Assembly (NCBI GenBank): GCA_038874435.1
Contig: JAVZCK010000010.1
Span: forward strand, 1 to 64,000
Source: Thermoplasmata archaeon
Lineage (GTDB): Archaea; Thermoplasmatota; Thermoplasmata; Lutacidiplasmatales; SKW197
Reading direction: 5' to 3'
DNA length: 64,000 bases
Part shown: piece after piece, positions 24,027 to 63,335 of the stretch
How positions within the stretch are numbered: position 1 is the first letter of the stretch
How the letters are laid out: every line of letters starts with the position of its first letter
Made by a program: the position numbers and the translations under genes
The notes under the pieces: generated by a model
Database searches by the model: none
Told to the model about the DNA's origin: nothing
The model's input: the letters and a program-made list of their open reading frames with translations, nothing else

Positions 24027-24154
24027 GCATTCCAGCCCAATCCTCATTTCCAGCCCCTGAGGGCAAGAGAAAAAAGAAATCGTGATAAAAGGTTTTTCCG
24101 TCTCAGTATCAATATCCATAAATATTAAGAGCGTATATGCAATGCTGTGAGAGA

Positions 24155-27100
24155 ATGGCTGAGAAAGAGGACAAACCAATAAATGAACTCTTTACTGAAA
24201 TACTCATCCGGATAAAGCAGGATGTGGAAATCTCCTTACTCATGGACTCTTTAGGGAGGTACAAGAGAAAGTACAGAGAACTAGCAAAAATCGGAGTAAC
24301 GCCTGACTATGAAGTAACCCTGAAGGGGGAAATTAAAGATGTGGAAGAGACCTTGCTTGGATTCCTGTATGCGGTCTACGAAACAGCCAAGGAAAAATCT
24401 GGAGTGGAAAGGGCGAGGGCAGAAATGAGCGAGGTACTTGAACATCTAATTGCCACGAGTGAGAACACCTCGGTAGCAAAAGTTGCTAAGGAATTTCTGA
24501 GTAAGATCCGACTTGAGCGGAGCCCTGTGGAAGAAATTGCTGAAAAATTGCTCAAGTATAAATTTGAGGGTTACCCAATTGAGGATGTGATTGGAGAGAA
24601 GGAGAAGGGAAAGGATGCCTTCTTGAAGGCCTACGAGGAATATGTGGCAAAAATAGAAAAATTAAAGAGTATCGAGGCACAGCTTGATGAATTAGATGTT
24701 ACTGGTTTTGAGAAGGAAGCCCTTGAAATTCGTTCACATATAAAAAACCCTGCAAAACTAGATTATGTGGAGCAGCTGATGAATAAGATTGTTGCTGGTG
24801 CGAGCATTGACAGAATGGAGAAAGAATTAAATGAAATTTCAAAAGAGATAGATGTACTAGAAAAGAAGGTCGCAAAAAAACCAAAAATTCAGCCCGCACC
24901 GAAAACTCCTAGGGAAGGTAAGGTAAACGGACGGAAAGATGGAAGAATTAATGGCAGGATCAATGGAAAAGTCAATGGGATGCGAGAAAGTAAAGGTGTT
25001 GTCCCAAAACGAGAGACCGAAGCTGGAAAGAGAACGGCAATCGCACTGATTGTATTCCTCTTGCTTGCTATCCCTCCTGCAGCAATCCTTCTCTATACAG
25101 AGGCAGGAATAAAGATAGATGGAAATCTAGATGATTGGGCTGGTAAGGCATCAATAGAGCAGGTGCCAACTGGAATGGATGTGCCAATAACGAAGTATGC
25201 GATCGATGTAGATGAAAAGTATGTGTATTTCTATCTGCAAGTGCAAAGCCCTCGTGCAGTGTTTGAGAGCAGTGGGAATCAAAGGGACACCGTTTTGCTG
25301 TTTCTAGATACAGGACAAGCTGGCTATAGATTTGATGGAATAAATGCAAAGTACAAGGTTGAGATTTCTGGTAGTGAGGGAAATGTGGTTTCTACATCGC
25401 TTTCCGAATATCAGGGCGATGGCACAAGCTGGAAATGGGCACCAAAGGGTTCAATTGAAGCAAAGGCAAGTATTGGAACACTTGAAGGTAGGATAAAGAA
25501 GAGCGATATTGGAAATGCTGAGCCGACAGTTTACATTCTAGCACAGCATGCGGATGGCAAGACGGGGAAGAGTATCATACCATTCAACAAAGAAATGAAA
25601 GGTGTGGCACTCACACAGGTTGGCATTGTGGACGAGATAGTACAGCCAGATGCCAATGCTACCTTGCTCACAGTTAATGCAAGGGCTTATGGAAAAGATG
25701 TGGAACTCAAGACACTTCTGCTGAAGAGAAGTGGGGGCTACAACGGAGTGCTAAATGTGAGAGTGGTTGATGCAAACAATGCGGAGCTTGGCACTGCGAG
25801 CTTCAGTGATGGAGCAATAGAGACAACAGCCACGCTGAATCGTGCAGTGGGTACGACTGGAGACCTTACTTTTAAGGTCGTTGCAGATGTGAGTGGAATT
25901 GCTAACAATTCAATTGGATTGAAGGTTGCTGGTGCCACAGTTGAAGGCACTGTAAAGGTTTATGGGGAAAGTAAAGTGGTGTATGTTGGTGCACCCACAG
26001 GAATAATAATCGATGGAGCATTTGGAGATTGGGCAGGAATTCAGGGACATGATGACCCTACGGGAGATGTGGCTATGATTCCAACGACTCTACCAGCGAA
26101 TTCAAACATAGACATAAATGCAACAAAGTACACGAACGACACAAACAATGTGTACTTCTATGCAAAGGTCTATGGTGATAAAATAATGGCAGGGTTGACA
26201 CAGGTGTATCGAGGAGTAGCAGGTGGAGGTCAGAGTGGCACACCTACACCAATTGAAGAGGTGGACATTTACGATTACCTTTACATCAACTTTACAGTGA
26301 GTGCAGTGGGGAAGGAGTATTCGATCCAAGTTGTGGGTAAAGATGGTGTAGTTCTCAGCAAGAAGGTGTTGGAGAAAGATATACAGGCAATGGTTTGGAG
26401 TGAGAGCACAGGATTGAGTGCAAGCTTGACAGTTGCTTGTGCAGCAGGGGAACTTGAGCTTGGCATACCGTTTGCAGATGGACAGATTACCACATACACA
26501 GTGACAATGAGCGACTGGATTGGAAAGGACACGACAAGTGTGATATTCAGTTACCACGGAGGGATAAGAGCATCTGGGGAAATACAACCAAAAGGCACAC
26601 CGCATGCACCGATTCACATAAACGGGAATGCAGATTTTGCTGCAAAGGCAACAGCTGAAAGCTGGCCTGGAGATGGGACACAAAACAATCCCTACATTAT
26701 TGATGGCTATGAGATAAACGCAAATGGTGGGAGTTATGGAATCTGGATTGAGAACACGGATGTCTATTTCGTGATACGGAACTGCAATATAACAAATGCA
26801 AGTAATTCGGGCAGTGCTCCGTACGGTTCGGGCATTGCATTGAATAATGTTCAAAATGGAACAATAGAAAACAATACTTGCACAAACTCAAAAAGAGGCA
26901 TATACTTATCCAACTCCGGTAACAACACGCTGACAAACAACAATGTGTTAAGCAATGAGTATGGAATTTACCTATCTGCCCAAAGTACTAATAATTACAA
27001 TCATAATCTTCTCTACTCTAACAATGTGTTAACCAATGAACATGGGATTTACATATATAGATCGAGTAACAATACGATAATCAACAACAATATTTCTGAA

Positions 27101-27583
27101 AATACAGTTAACGGCACTTATCTATACCAATCGAGCAATAATACGCTATCAAATAACAATATTTCAAAGAATAATGTTGGAATTTTTCTGAATTCCACCA
27201 GCAAGAATAACCTTATCACCTACAATTGGATTACACAGAATTCTAATTACAGCATAAACATAAGTAGTTCAAGTGCGACTGGCAACCTCATCCACCACAA
27301 CAACTTCATAGCTAACAACGGTGCTGGCAAAGGCCTAACAGGTAGATGTCAGGCATATGATGCAGGTGGAAATCAGTGGTACATTGCCACAAAGGATGGG
27401 AAAGGTACAGAGGGCAACTACTGGAGCAACTGGGATGGGAAAGACGATTATCCGATTGATGGAAGCAGTGCAAGTGACCCGTCGCCGTTTAGCAGTCCAG
27501 TATCAGAATTCACGCAATTGCCCCTCTTTGCCATGTTCCTTATCGGGGCTCTTGTCGCAATTGCCAGAAAACGAAAACACTGA
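24155..27583 (+). CDS. Large membrane-anchored beta-helix surface protein
   Basis: About 1142 residues. Residues 1-260 are charged and helical (cytoplasmic), followed by Asn-Gly repeats (GKVNGRKDGRINGRINGK near 255-275), then a transmembrane helix at about 294-316. Outside, two CBM9/DOMON-like domains begin with IDGNLDDWAG near 320 and IDGAFGDWAG near 618. From PHAPIHINGNADF near 815, a NosD-type right-handed parallel beta-helix with many N-x-T sites runs to about 1105. The tail VSEFTQLPLFAMFLIGA plus RKRKH is a possible second anchor or sorting signal. It may bind or process polysaccharide. The ATG at 24155 is about 35 bases after a TATA-like box (24112-24126). Confidence 0.82.
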   Translation: MAEKEDKPINELFTEILIRIKQDVEISLLMDSLGRYKRKYRELAKIGVTPDYEVTLKGEIKDVEETLLGFLYAVYETAKEKSGVERARAEMSEVLEHLIATSENTSVAKVAKEFLSKIRLERSPVEEIAEKLLKYKFEGYPIEDVIGEKEKGKDAFLKAYEEYVAKIEKLKSIEAQLDELDVTGFEKEALEIRSHIKNPAKLDYVEQLMNKIVAGASIDRMEKELNEISKEIDVLEKKVAKKPKIQPAPKTPREGKVNGRKDGRINGRINGKVNGMRESKGVVPKRETEAGKRTAIALIVFLLLAIPPAAILLYTEAGIKIDGNLDDWAGKASIEQVPTGMDVPITKYAIDVDEKYVYFYLQVQSPRAVFESSGNQRDTVLLFLDTGQAGYRFDGINAKYKVEISGSEGNVVSTSLSEYQGDGTSWKWAPKGSIEAKASIGTLEGRIKKSDIGNAEPTVYILAQHADGKTGKSIIPFNKEMKGVALTQVGIVDEIVQPDANATLLTVNARAYGKDVELKTLLLKRSGGYNGVLNVRVVDANNAELGTASFSDGAIETTATLNRAVGTTGDLTFKVVADVSGIANNSIGLKVAGATVEGTVKVYGESKVVYVGAPTGIIIDGAFGDWAGIQGHDDPTGDVAMIPTTLPANSNIDINATKYTNDTNNVYFYAKVYGDKIMAGLTQVYRGVAGGGQSGTPTPIEEVDIYDYLYINFTVSAVGKEYSIQVVGKDGVVLSKKVLEKDIQAMVWSESTGLSASLTVACAAGELELGIPFADGQITTYTVTMSDWIGKDTTSVIFSYHGGIRASGEIQPKGTPHAPIHINGNADFAAKATAESWPGDGTQNNPYIIDGYEINANGGSYGIWIENTDVYFVIRNCNITNASNSGSAPYGSGIALNNVQNGTIENNTCTNSKRGIYLSNSGNNTLTNNNVLSNEYGIYLSAQSTNNYNHNLLYSNNVLTNEHGIYIYRSSNNTIINNNISENTVNGTYLYQSSNNTLSNNNISKNNVGIFLNSTSKNNLITYNWITQNSNYSINISSSSATGNLIHHNNFIANNGAGKGLTGRCQAYDAGGNQWYIATKDGKGTEGNYWSNWDGKDDYPIDGSSASDPSPFSSPVSEFTQLPLFAMFLIGALVAIARKRKH

Positions 27584-37405: not shown

Positions 37406-39736
37406 CTAATTGGCACGTGTGCTATCAAGAGTTCTTCTGTGAAGCTGACTTTTAGTGTTCCGAGGGCATTTATATAATGTACCCCTCCAAAACCCTAACA
37501 TGGATATTATCAAGAGCGCAATCAATGAGAGTTGTGAGCACTCACTCACAGGGCTTCCCATTGGATACCAGTCGCTTGCACCCGCACCGCCATCAATTGG
37601 GTAGGCATTTGCAGTGCCGTTGCCATTGCCATCCCAATTGCTCCAGTAGTTGCCCTCGTTCACACTGTTGTCATACCAGTAGTTGCCACCAACATCATCG
37701 TAGGCCTGGCAGTTGCCGGAGACGCCTTTACCAGCACCGTTTGGGGTATCGTTAGATACCCCTTGACCCAGGTACCATAGGGCGGTAGCCCTGTTGCCAA
37801 TGAAGTAGTTGTGATTGATTTTGTTGTTCGTAGACATATCTGTGAGGTAAACTCCATACTTTACATTGTTGCAGAACCAGTTAAGGGTTATGGTGTTATT
37901 GGTTGAGCGATGGAGGTAAGTTCCATTGGAATTGCCAGACACATTGTTTTCTGTGATTGTGTTATAGTTTGAATAGTATGTGAGATAGAGGCCATTTTCG
38001 TTGTTGTTGGAAAGAATATTCTTCGTTATTGTATGGTTGGTTGAGGTGTGCAGAAGCATCCCGTAATAGTAATTCCCGCTGAAATTGTTGTATGCTATGT
38101 TGTTGTAATTTGAGAACTGAATGTAGGCACCATCATAGTTATTGTAGCCAGTGTTAAATGTTATATTGTTATAGTGTGCCTGGGAAAGATAGATTCCGTA
38201 ATTGTTTCCATTTACCAGATTTGTGTTTATTGTCGCATTGTTTGAGGAAAACAATGTGATTCCATATGTGTTGCCGTTTGCGTTTGTGTTGGAAATTGTA
38301 ATATTATCTGAAGAGCCAACATAAATTCCACTGACAGAATTGCTGTTCGCATTGCAGAAATCAACAACGACATTACTTGCGTAGTAGAGATAAATCCCGT
38401 AGGTATTGCTGTTGGCTGAATTGTTAACAATAGTATTGTTATCAGAAAAATAGAGTGCGATACCTTGCTGCACTGTATTTGCAGTGTTGTTCACAATCGT
38501 GTTGTACATAGAGGCACCATAGATGTACACTCCACGAATTGAGGCTGTGCAAGTGTTGTTTTCTATTTTGCCGTTTTGTACATTGTTCAGGGCAATTGCA
38601 GCCCCGAATGGTACAGTGCTGATGCTAGTTGCACCTTGGATTGTGCAGTTCCTAACTGCGAAGTGCACCGTTGTGTTCTCAATCCAGATACCATAACTTC
38701 CCCCAGCACTGTTGATGTCATATCCCTCAATGAGGTATGGAGCATTCTCTGTTCCATCTCCACTCCAACCCTCAGATAGTGCCTGTGATGCAAAATCTGC
38801 ATCTCCGTTTATATGTATCGGAGCATGAACTGTCCCTCTGGATGCAATAACTGGCGTTACTGTTGGTGTTTTTGCGGTTAATACTCTCTCTGCCAACATG
38901 AAGTTATCAGGATTTACATACTGCAAAGCATTCTCTAGCTTGCACTCCTTGTTCTGCCAGTCAATCATGTAGAAGTAAACTGCATAATTTTCACCGATGC
39001 CAAGCAAACTTTTGCCTGCCATTGTTTCTACCTGCTTTCCATTTGTTGCTGCAGCCACACTCTCTCCAATTACCCATGTCCATTCCTGCTGCACCACACC
39101 AGCAAATGTAAGCACTCGACATGCCTCTATCTTTCCATTCTTGCCCACAATCTCTATTGATTTATCCGCACCCACTGCAAAATTAACAGAGGGCTTGAAG
39201 CCAGTTGCTGCGTTATTGTCCGTGTCCACAAACACATACGCCACATCCCTGCCATTCTGATTCGGAATTGCCGTCTCCCTCTGGTATGCAACATACACTG
39301 GATTTTCAGATGGTGCCTCCACAATGTATCTGCCATCGCCAACGAGCAAATTGCCATACACCTTCGCATAAAACGCCACATTCTTACCAGATTCTGCAGT
39401 TGCATACTCCGCAATGTCAATGTTCTCTGGCACACCCAAATCTCTTGCCCTCGTGGTCTTTTCAACGCCCTGCCAGTCCTCAAAACTGCCATCAATCTTG
39501 ATCACATTTGAACTGACACCCTGCCATGCCAGAACACCGACAGCACTGAACACCAACACCGCAAATAAAACACCAATGCCAGCTTTACCATATTTTGCTC
39601 TATTCCTAGTCATTGTCATACTCCTTTTCCAGTTACTGCCCTGCAACCCGTTGGTAAATCCATTTTTAGCACTCGAGCCATTCTTTCTAACGCTGTAAAA
39701 ATCAATACCCTTTGTAGTTCTGCTTTTCAATCTCAT
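37406..39736 (-). CDS. Membrane-anchored beta-helix surface protein with palindromic insertion
   Basis: 776 residues. A basic amino end with an NG motif (KNGFTNGLQG, near 24-34) precedes a transmembrane helix at about 50-72, then one CBM9/DOMON-like domain (IDGSFEDWQG near 79) and a NosD-type beta-helix from HAPIHINGDADF near 305 to about 720, rich in N-x-T sites. It is a shorter paralogue of the 24155 protein, which has two DOMON-like units. Residues 649-665 are an insertion absent from that paralogue and encoded by a palindromic element. After a hydrophobic tail near 733-750 the end (WRGTLYKCPRNTK and on) is unusual and about 25 residues longer. A TATA box near 39767-39775 and GGTGG support the start. 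Confidence 0.8.
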   Translation of the reverse strand: MRLKSRTTKGIDFYSVRKNGSSAKNGFTNGLQGSNWKRSMTMTRNRAKYGKAGIGVLFAVLVFSAVGVLAWQGVSSNVIKIDGSFEDWQGVEKTTRARDLGVPENIDIAEYATAESGKNVAFYAKVYGNLLVGDGRYIVEAPSENPVYVAYQRETAIPNQNGRDVAYVFVDTDNNAATGFKPSVNFAVGADKSIEIVGKNGKIEACRVLTFAGVVQQEWTWVIGESVAAATNGKQVETMAGKSLLGIGENYAVYFYMIDWQNKECKLENALQYVNPDNFMLAERVLTAKTPTVTPVIASRGTVHAPIHINGDADFASQALSEGWSGDGTENAPYLIEGYDINSAGGSYGIWIENTTVHFAVRNCTIQGATSISTVPFGAAIALNNVQNGKIENNTCTASIRGVYIYGASMYNTIVNNTANTVQQGIALYFSDNNTIVNNSANSNTYGIYLYYASNVVVDFCNANSNSVSGIYVGSSDNITISNTNANGNTYGITLFSSNNATINTNLVNGNNYGIYLSQAHYNNITFNTGYNNYDGAYIQFSNYNNIAYNNFSGNYYYGMLLHTSTNHTITKNILSNNNENGLYLTYYSNYNTITENNVSGNSNGTYLHRSTNNTITLNWFCNNVKYGVYLTDMSTNNKINHNYFIGNRATALWYLGQGVSNDTPNGAGKGVSGNCQAYDDVGGNYWYDNSVNEGNYWSNWDGNGNGTANAYPIDGGAGASDWYPMGSPVSECSQLSLIALLIISMLGFWRGTLYKCPRNTKSQLHRRTLDSTRAN
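37742..37792 (-). repeat. Palindromic element inside a coding sequence (short form)
   Basis: Two hairpins side by side: arms AGGGC/GCCCT at 37779-37783 and 37788-37792, and 8-base perfect arms GGGGTATC/GATACCCC at 37743-37750 and 37755-37762. The 51 bases encode exactly the 17 residues that the paralogue at 24155 lacks at this place. Read on the minus strand it matches the intergenic repeat at 53836-53912: CCCTATGGTACC is identical over 12 bases, followed by TCAAGGGG and a GC-rich hairpin. It keeps the reading frame open. Confidence 0.7.
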
Positions 39737-53307: not shown

Positions 53308-53744
53308 GAAATCCGTGGCTTTGGAGACACTCTTTTTTCCTTGGTTTCTTATTTTTGATCGGTGCAATACTCTGCTTTGCCTATGGAATTTACAAGGGAG
53401 AGGTGCAGGCAGGACTTTTACTCATTTTTCCATTTTTTATTGGTAGTGGGATTCTTTCCCTGCTCGGCACAATCTTTCTGATGCTTGCAATCTTCTGCTT
53501 TGCAATTGGATTCATAGGAAGAAGCGTGGGTTTCATAGATATTGGGGTTGAGGAAAAAGATTACGGAGAGCATTTACAAAGCCATGAAAAACCCGAGACA
53601 AGTGTAGATGGGATTCTGCTCGTCGGTCCTTTTCCAGTTATTTTCACCACAAAAAAATCCCACATACTCTATCTCGCAATCCTCGCATTTGCACTAGCAG
53701 TAGGAATTCTGCTCCTGTTTCTAGTTCTCGCATTCTTTCATTAG
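53304..53744 (+). CDS. DUF131-type membrane protein
   Basis: 146 residues with about three hydrophobic helices (12-30, 37-70, 120-143) and the family-like segment DGILLVGPFPVIFTT near 102. Function unknown. Its ATGA overlap couples it to the acyl-CoA dehydrogenase gene. The last 84 coding bases (53655-53738) occur again at 62018-62101 beyond the block of giant genes. Confidence 0.78.
   Translation: MRNPWLWRHSFFLGFLFLIGAILCFAYGIYKGEVQAGLLLIFPFFIGSGILSLLGTIFLMLAIFCFAIGFIGRSVGFIDIGVEEKDYGEHLQSHEKPETSVDGILLVGPFPVIFTTKKSHILYLAILAFALAVGILLLFLVLAFFH
53655..53738 (+). repeat. Direct repeat, left copy (3' end of DUF131)
   Basis: 84 bases identical to 62018-62101 except at two positions, both third codon positions that leave leucine unchanged. 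This is the functional copy within the DUF131 gene, and lies next to the left edge of the block with the giant exported genes. Confidence 0.85.
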
Positions 53745-53783
53745 TTTATTCACTGATTTCTAATGCTAACTTTTGAGGACATG

Positions 53784-53988
53784 AAAAGGGGCTAACCGCT
53801 CTACGCTACCACGAGGGGCTGCGCCACTTACGGACGGGGTTACACCCTATGGTACCACGAGGGTTGGCACCCTTACGGTAACCTGCCTCAAGGGGATACC
53901 TTCGGTATCCCCGAACCTGTCCATTTTTTCCGTGAACGCTTTTGCGAGCGTTAGCGAGCAAAAGGGTTCACCGAACCAACCCTTTTTT
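53784..53988 (+). repeat. GC-rich structured intergenic repeat (long form)
   Basis: It has a run of hairpins and repeats unlike the surrounding sequence. Two related units begin TACCACGAGGG and end CTTACGG (53807-53833 and 53853-53878). A hairpin with 9-base arms GGGGATACC and GGTATCCCC and a 3-base loop is at 53892-53912. Arms CTTTTGC/GCAAAAG are at 53939-53945 and 53958-53964. A terminator-like hairpin AAAGGGTT/AACCCTTT with T-tract is at 53961-53988. Part of it (53836-53912) matches the element at 37742-37792. No coding potential is credible here. Confidence 0.6.
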
Positions 53989-62011: not shown

Positions 62012-62107
62012 ATGGAGAAATCCCACATACTCTATCTCGCAATCCTCGCATTTGCACTGGCAGTAGGAATTCTGCTCCTATTTCTAGTTCTCGCATTCTT
62101 TACGTAA
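62012..62107 (+). pseudogene. DUF131 3'-end remnant or 31-residue micro-ORF
   Basis: ATG at 62012 to TAA at 62107 encodes 31 residues (MEKSHILYLAILAFAL at the start). Its 84 bases from 62018 duplicate the DUF131 membrane helix at 53655-53738 with two synonymous changes. No ribosome binding site or good promoter is seen, so a truncated remnant is most likely. It ends one base before the stop codon of the convergent M16 gene. If translated it would be a one-helix membrane microprotein. Confidence 0.6.
62018..62101 (+). repeat. Direct repeat, right copy
   Basis: The right copy of the 84-base repeat (82 of 84 bases identical to 53655-53738, same orientation). The two copies enclose about 8.3 kb holding the structured repeat and the two giant exported genes. 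Confidence 0.85.
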
Positions 62108-62108
62108 A

Positions 62109-63335
62109 CTATTCTTGGTTTCTTATTACTGCACATGAATACCGTGCCTTGAGAAGTTTATTTGCGATTCTAGTTACATCCTCAAATTTTACATTTTCAA
62201 TTCTGCTCTTTAGTTCTTCAAGCGTTACAATTTTTCCGGTTCTCATTGCATACTCACCCAGCACAAATGCCCGTGCCTCACTTGTTTCAAGTTTTCTTGT
62301 GAAGAGACCGTTGAGCATGTTTTTGGCCGTTTGAAATTCCTCTTCACTGATGCTCCCCTCGGACACCTGTCTCACTTCTTCCAAAATTCTCTGTTTTCCC
62401 CTCTCTATGTTTTTAGTTGCAACCCCTGCATAAATTCCTAGTAAGCCAGTATCTTCATAACTCTGCGTGTGGGTAAAGACAGCGTAACCCAGCCCCTCTT
62501 TTTCGCGGATTGTTCTGTAAAGCCTAGAACTTGTACCACCACCGAGCAACACGCTGAGAACTTTAAGGGCAAATAGGTCGGGATGTGAAAAATTCAGGCC
62601 TTCAAACCCAATACCAATGTGGGCCTGTGCCTCGCCCCCATGAAATTCTTTTTCCATCCCAAGAAATTCTGGTTTCTTTCTCTGCTTTTCAGCACTTCCT
62701 TCTCTCAAAGTCCTGAAATAGCGCTCCACCCATTCTACAACCCTATCATGTGCTAGATTTCCAGATGCAGAGACAAGGAGATTTTTTGTTAGGAAATGGT
62801 TGTTTATGTAGGTTTTTAAATCCTCTATCCTCTGCTTTTTCACATCTTCAATTTTCCCAGTTTCAATTTTTCCAAGCTCACTTTCACCCCATGAACACAT
62901 TCTCAGTGCATCGAAAATAAACTTCTCTGGATTTTCTTCATGAAGGCGGATTTCTTCATACACTACATGCTTCTCTCTTTCCAAAATTTCTTCCGAAAGC
63001 AACGGCTCAGTGAGAATTTCTGCAAGGAGGGCAAATGCCATTTCCAGCTTTTCTTTAAGAGTACCTGCATAAAAGCACATGTACTCACTACCAGTTACTG
63101 CATTCATTTCTCCACCAGCACCCTCAATCAACCGATTTATTTCCTCGCCGCTCCTTTTTCCAGTACCACGAAAGAGCATGTGCTCCAGCATGTGGGCGGT
63201 GCCTGGGGGGACCCCAGTTTCATCCCTTGCACCAGACATTATCCAGACGCACACCGTTGCGGAATCAAGATGGGGAATTTTCTCTGTCACGATTCTTATG
63301 CCATTTTCAAGTTTGGTTTCACTGTATCTGTCCAT
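62109..63335 (-). CDS. M16 family zinc peptidase
   Basis: A 408-residue inverzincin. The zinc motif HxxEH is HMLEH, His48-Glu51-His52, and the further Glu ligand lies in VYEEIRLHEENP near 125. The second half has the usual non-catalytic M16 repeat (GGGTSSRLYRTIREKEGLGY near 247). Length fits bacterial and archaeal PqqL/YmxG-like proteins, which form dimers and degrade small peptides. No signal peptide is seen. The ATG at 63335 is about 27 bases from the TATA box at 63358-63368, a leaderless start; a frame reaching 63485 overlaps the divergent gene. Confidence 0.92.
   Translation of the reverse strand: MDRYSETKLENGIRIVTEKIPHLDSATVCVWIMSGARDETGVPPGTAHMLEHMLFRGTGKRSGEEINRLIEGAGGEMNAVTGSEYMCFYAGTLKEKLEMAFALLAEILTEPLLSEEILEREKHVVYEEIRLHEENPEKFIFDALRMCSWGESELGKIETGKIEDVKKQRIEDLKTYINNHFLTKNLLVSASGNLAHDRVVEWVERYFRTLREGSAEKQRKKPEFLGMEKEFHGGEAQAHIGIGFEGLNFSHPDLFALKVLSVLLGGGTSSRLYRTIREKEGLGYAVFTHTQSYEDTGLLGIYAGVATKNIERGKQRILEEVRQVSEGSISEEEFQTAKNMLNGLFTRKLETSEARAFVLGEYAMRTGKIVTLEELKSRIENVKFEDVTRIANKLLKARYSCAVIRNQE

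Follow-up and report, generated by a model that had tools for sequence, protein, structure and literature searches.

The window analysed here is a stretch of 64,000 nucleotides from contig 10 of the 43 contigs (denoted C) of a 2.16 Mb Thermoplasmata genome (G000, the home genome), a bin that is 95% complete. The features discussed are collected in Table 1, together with loci elsewhere in this genome and in that of Thermoplasmata archaeon SKW197 (G001; JAOAJK01), which belongs to the same genus. On the minus strand of the window a beta-helix gene carries 51 bases that are missing from a paralogue in the same window. An earlier note on this DNA had described these bases as an in-frame insert of 17 codons composed of two hairpins; the coordinates proved exact, and the site in the paralogue is empty. 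On the plus strand the junctions read ...GCACCGTT / TGGGGTATCGTTAGATACCCCTTGACCCAGGTACCATAGGGCGGTAGCCCT / GTTGCC..., the insert being bounded on each side by GTT, which is AAC on the coding strand. No clear target duplication was found at this site, where there is only AAC on either side. The two hairpins are linked by TTGACCCAGGTACCAT. Hairpin 1 is nearer to copies from SKW197 than to those of the home genome, and hairpin 2 is nearer to home-genome copies.

Table 1. Coordinates and sequences of the insert, the repeat modules and related loci. Positions without a contig are those of the window.
Feature	Location	Strand	Description
Host gene	37406..39736	-	776-aa right-handed beta-helix / NosD-like protein; PF13229 E 5e-38, PF05048 E 2e-35
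In-frame insertion	37742..37792	-	51 nt = 17 codons, RATALWYLGQGVSNDTP; two hairpins; antisense to tRNA-intron orientation of repeat
Hairpin 1 (B module)	37743..37762	+	GGGGTATC-GTTA-GATACCCC; arms 37743-37750/37755-37762
Hairpin 2 (C-type module)	37779..37792	+	AGGGC-GGTA-GCCCT; arms 37779-37783/37788-37792
Insert peptides			RATALWYLGQGVSNDTP, SEGSASPYGTPSPFK
Paralogue without insertion	24137..27583	+	empty site AAC/AACGGTGC at about 27316/27317
Intergenic array	53781..53970	-	A module 53930-53969; B+C unit 53858-53916; C-type hairpins down to 53781
A module			GAACCCTTTTCAGGGTGCTTCGCACCCCGAAAAGCGTTCACGG and variants
P module			GAAACCTTTTCAGGCTTCGCCCGAAAAGGTTTCATCC
B module			GTTCGGGGATGC...CCCC
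C module			GGTTACCGTAAGGGGGCGTAGCCCCCTCG
Arrays after tRNA 3' ends	home genome C5:84245, C2:10676-10803; SKW197 C21, C2
23S candidate BHB introns	home genome C8:30019-30064, C8:30635-30665		shared A-module hairpin
16S candidate BHB intron, site 781	home genome C26:1200-1237		GATTAGATA/.../CCCCGG; shared A-module hairpin

The insert as a derived, open reading segment

The C-terminal domain of the host protein was matched 48 times in the home genome and 34 times in SKW197. We conclude from these alignments that the stretch is a derived insertion and not ancestral, because, when the distinct copies are read, the 17 residues are present in only three of the 48 home-genome matches and in none of the 34 from SKW197. 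Shared ancestry of the stretch, which the earlier note had offered as one way to refute an insertion, is thus not what is seen. The three insert-bearing copies (C10, C2:32430 and C3:75725), all in the home genome, carry it at the same codon, and the inserts are 84-88% identical, above much of their flanks. In its flanks the C3 copy shows hardly more similarity than random paralogues do; the near flanks of the C10 and C2 copies are similar too. In a tree of the domain, in which few forks were resolved, the three insert-bearing paralogues do not group. A single insertion followed by duplication of the paralogue is disfavoured by this tree, with the same reservation about its resolution. Given the divergent C3 flanks and the scatter of the three copies in the tree, the paralogues had probably diverged before the insert spread among them, through gene conversion or repeated insertion at the AAC/AAC site.

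All three beta-helix inserts have an open frame and no indels, although in two of them mismatches have already arisen in the hairpin arms. When these sequences are read in all six frames, two of the three have only 2 of 6 open, the frame of the gene being among the 2. Selection on the insert, which had been suggested previously, could not be demonstrated; the synonymous and non-synonymous changes among the three copies are too few. No bulge-helix-bulge (BHB) structure, the archaeal splice signal, was formed at the junctions of the protein-gene inserts, which are therefore most likely translated. We infer, without RNA or protein data, that the beta-helix insert is probably not spliced and adds 17 residues to the protein. 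In an AlphaFold model of 300 residues (mean pLDDT 83) the insert (model residues 173-189, counted by hand) appears as a low-confidence loop (pLDDT 50-65) between segments at 96-97, and the extra residues would then probably form a disordered loop beyond the final coil of the helix.

A modular repeat family and a second protein gene

The match of the insert to an intergenic repeat at 53836-53912, which the earlier note had pointed out, is real and cannot be attributed to chance. BLAST with the intergenic copy gave 26 matches in the home genome at E <= 10, of which 18 were below 1e-6. A covariance model built from 17 intergenic and tRNA-intron copies, with no protein-gene copy included, gave 39 matches in this genome at E <= 1. 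These include the insert in the window (37739-37795, plus strand, E 7.8e-8) and the two other beta-helix inserts (E 7.8e-8 and 1.4e-6). A lack of further copies in the genome, which would have counted against a mobile element, is thereby ruled out. The 12-base word taken by itself, with mismatches allowed, is not significant; the two-hairpin unit is. SKW197 had 5 matches to the same model, 39 genomes belonging to other genera of the order had none, and an exact 20-mer scan of 84,980 species genomes returned SKW197 only (records of the home genome were perhaps excluded). As far as these searches reach, the family is found only in one Thermoplasmata genus. Copies in the home genome were located by searches and the reading of stretches only. 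There was no phage or plasmid match. An exact 20-mer does occur in two viral contigs, inside one ordinary coding gene common to both, and a viral origin was rejected as resting on a chance identity.

Inspection of the loci side by side shows that the repeat is a chain of hairpin modules of 20-45 nt, usually in the order A, P, B, C, with C often repeated and the number of modules variable. Most copies begin with GAACCC, the 3' ends vary (CCCTCG or CCCCGTT), and the only terminal inverted repeats of the family are GAAC/GTTC. In the helix of the B module, two-sided (compensatory) changes occur in 6 of 9 pairs, pairing is 98% and none of 500 shuffles reaches the observed score. Intergenic copies occupy about 14 places. 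Several arrays lie directly 3' of tRNA genes, starting right after the 3' ends of tRNA-Cys and tRNA-Leu genes. Beside the intergenic array of the window, the gene ends at 53655-53751 and 62018-62114 are 92% duplicates, and on C15 and C26 of the home genome a similar gene end adjoins the same array; gene end and array may therefore have been copied together. In both species a weak, antisense match to the A module was also seen in the gene for archaeal RNase P RNA (C1:19295-19333 and G001:C20:8009-8047).

A second copy within a protein gene was found in a gene encoding an HD-domain protein (PF01966, PF19276), where a C module lies at C3:78449-78480 (E 8e-9). The insertion comprises 66 bp in frame, namely a 40-nt module plus a direct duplication of 26 bp of the target (AAAACCATCCATGACTGTGTTCATAG), and the protein across it reads MSEFKTIHDCVH (SEGSASPYGTPSPFKTIHDCVH) RSIRL. 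No clear target duplication was seen at other copies of the family. SKW197 matches the uninterrupted HD protein without gaps (99 residues in 297 bases) and therefore carries the empty site. Judged on sequence, this insertion is independent of that in the beta-helix gene. The repeat is thus present both inside and outside protein genes, and it stands in frame, opposite empty sites, in two unrelated ones. These are properties of a palindromic element like those of Rickettsia (Rickettsia palindromic elements, RPE), and the proposal that such an element had been inserted here is supported. The events in protein genes that are independent number only two, however, so that in-frame insertion is not established as a habit of the element. 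The many further copies that the earlier note had looked for were found, and only one other protein gene was hit. Long open frames across the intergenic copies at C15:34115, C8:10412 and C5:84245 were set aside as spurious or as 5' extensions of a gene and not taken for insertions, and weak matches in coding genes at C28:7625, C4:116034 and G001:C83 look like ordinary coding sequence.

Introns in tRNA and rRNA genes

In both species, modules of the repeat form introns in five tRNA genes, for Glu-UUC, Glu-CUC, Gln-CUG, Gln-UUG and Arg-UCG. ARAGORN, with introns allowed, gave lengths of 455, 425, 384, 190 and 217 nt in the home genome and of 173, 191, 184, 204 and 186 nt in SKW197; archaeal tRNA introns are put at 11-129 nt in a review (PMC4090602). 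Because the program had misplaced the splice point, most of its labels for these tRNAs (Stop, SeC, Pyl, Arg-tcg) were incorrect; the identities given here come from a manual reassignment guided by BHB geometry and by intronless homologues. All sites lie next to the anticodon, and in 10 of 10 introns there is a BHB central helix of 3-4 out of 4 bp with two 3-nt bulges; the inner helix is weak (0-2 bp) in 5 of the 10. With three rRNA introns added to the ten, the central helix averages 3.77 of 4 for cognate combinations and 2.86 for non-cognate ones. The cognate total was reached by 7 of 20,000 permutations, which is no strict probability, given the relatedness of the species and the setting of sites by hand. 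Apart from these, no tRNA gene for Glu or Gln was found in the home genome, and the introns should therefore be spliced; splicing is inferred, there being no RNA data.

In other genera the corresponding tRNAs are intronless at the anticodon: Gln in G002, G006 and G008, Glu-UUC in G003 and Arg-UCG in G006. The Arg-UCG tRNA of G003 seemingly has a short anticodon intron, and the Arg-UCG genes of G003 and G002 also show an apparent T-loop insertion. A further small tRNA intron, in a gene read by hand as Gly-CCC (C5:36539-36642 and G001:C55:47570-47713), consists of one AT-rich palindrome starting with GGAACC in one species and of a doubled palindrome in the other.

The A module also has weaker matches (E 7e-6, 2e-5 and 2e-4), which fall at two sites in 23S rRNA and at site 781 of 16S rRNA. 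The rRNA identity of these loci was confirmed by Rfam, a BHB core is present at each of the three, and introns at 16S site 781 are already known from archaea (PMC4496867). The kinship of these putative introns with those of the tRNA genes is less certain, resting as it does on a short hairpin.

Routes of movement and comparison with known systems

As a whole, these results make it highly probable that the 51 bases arose by the derived, in-frame insertion of a B+C submodule, and that this comes from a palindromic repeat which is non-autonomous, specific to one genus and persists only where the host gene survives. The chain has dispersed to the intergenic places, to the five tRNA introns and to protein genes. 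It would have been kept where it is harmless, between genes, inside RNA genes whose ends support BHB splicing, and in protein genes where it keeps the frame open and in phase and adds a loop at the surface. That the repeat is a non-autonomous mobile palindrome is the most likely reading; its route of movement is not shown and its neutrality is inferred. Loop length varies among beta-helix proteins, and the stretch might be an ordinary difference of this kind that resembles the repeat by chance, but this is scarcely credible in view of the E values from a model lacking these copies (8e-8, 8e-8 and 1e-6) and of inserts more alike than much of their flanks. It is also distinctly improbable that the repeat is a host element recruited many times without being mobile (a terminator, or a site for RNA stability or chromatin). 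The strong, conserved hairpins with covariation would fit such a role, as would the position of several copies immediately 3' of tRNA genes, but copies in tRNA introns and coding frames, the restriction to a genus and the variable number of modules would not. For the HD-gene event alone one may consider an off-target, CRISPR-type integration by Cas1-Cas2, with a 40-bp repeat fragment as the spacer and 26 bp of target duplicated. The 40-bp insert is spacer-like in size and the 26-bp direct duplication is repeat-like, yet what was inserted is a single, recognisable module and no random fragment, and such an event would leave both the tRNA introns and the beta-helix site unexplained; we regard this as rather improbable.

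If the palindrome is mobile, two routes deserve comparison, and the orientation of the copies bears on both: those in RNA genes all have one orientation, and both protein-gene events have the opposite one. MITE-like movement at the DNA level, the hairpins being mobilised in trans, is a real possibility, if short of an even chance. The transposase would have been lost, be missing from the 95%-complete bin or be of an unrecognised type. The discrete 5' end GAACCC of most copies, the short inverted ends GAAC/GTTC, the dispersed intergenic copies and the target duplication in the HD gene agree with this route, and protein-gene copies antisense to the introns are not what intron RNA inserting into mRNA would produce. 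Against it, 26 bp is a long duplication for a MITE, the 3' ends vary and no full-length autonomous relative was found. No mobilising gene was identified either: a search of the home genome for Y1_Tnp was negative, which led us to reject RAYT/IS200 mobilisation, and other transposase families were outside the search. Alternatively, excised BHB introns may reverse-splice into tRNA and rRNA and be copied back to DNA, intergenic and protein-gene copies being secondary. Related introns in the same orientation at eight RNA-gene sites (5 tRNA, the 16S and two in 23S), and inner BHB helices supplied in several by the intron ends, are in its favour; transposition of tRNA introns, by an unknown mechanism, has been reported for Thermoproteales (PMC4090602, PMC4033280). 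Both protein-gene events are antisense, however, and DNA recombination copying intron to intron would look identical, so that we consider this second route unlikely. Open frames are commoner in the protein-gene orientation (31 of 51 against 18 of 51), and selection could therefore explain the orientation. A tentative and doubtful extension is that one mobile palindrome family makes both archaeal introns and in-frame protein loops, by entering tRNA and rRNA in a form that BHB splicing can remove and growing by added hairpin modules, with re-insertion at the RNA level possible. If this is true, a single mobile element has two outcomes, the gain of introns and insertion into proteins.

This is not an invasion of proteins on the scale of RPE, because only one other protein gene carries the repeat; the larger story is that of repeat-built tRNA introns and related rRNA introns. 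In two species of one genus, five tRNA introns are visibly built from a dispersed repeat, with intronless tRNAs known from other genera of that order. The family offers an archaeal case of protein-coding palindromes in which the fate of one element in RNA and protein genes can be compared directly, and a snapshot of the gain of new protein loops and new introns in an archaeon. A literature search among openly licensed papers gave only general papers on in-frame palindromic elements in archaea and no report of archaeal tRNA introns with MITEs.

Like RPE, the repeat is palindromic and non-autonomous, and lies in frame in unrelated protein genes as well as elsewhere in the genome. It differs in its modules of 40-51 nt, its two independent protein-gene events, its archaeal host and its part in building tRNA introns. 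Sequence homology to RPE across domains seems unlikely. RPE measure about 150 bp, and R. conorii has 44 insertions of them, of which nearly half lie in ORFs (Ogata 2000, 2002, as summarised in PMC10969869). With REP/RAYT and GTAG-tagged palindromes (PMC3733652) the family shares short palindromes and, in some copies, GTAG before the hairpin, but many copies read GTAA and no Y1 transposase was found. Archaeal MITEs of Sulfolobus and haloarchaea (PMC10969869) are likewise short, non-autonomous and dispersed, whereas here there is no known parent transposon or consistent target duplication, and the hairpins form a modular chain. The rRNA introns share site 781 and a BHB core with known archaeal 16S/23S introns (PMC4496867), but are too short to accommodate a homing endonuclease and have the A-module hairpin in common with the tRNA introns. 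Finally, the transposed tRNA introns of Thermoproteales (Fujishima 2010, as cited in PMC4090602 and PMC4033280) also place similar introns with BHB signals in different tRNAs. The introns described here occur in a Thermoplasmata genus, are 173-455 nt long against the 11-129 nt of the review (PMC4090602), and are built from a repeat that is also found between genes and in protein genes.
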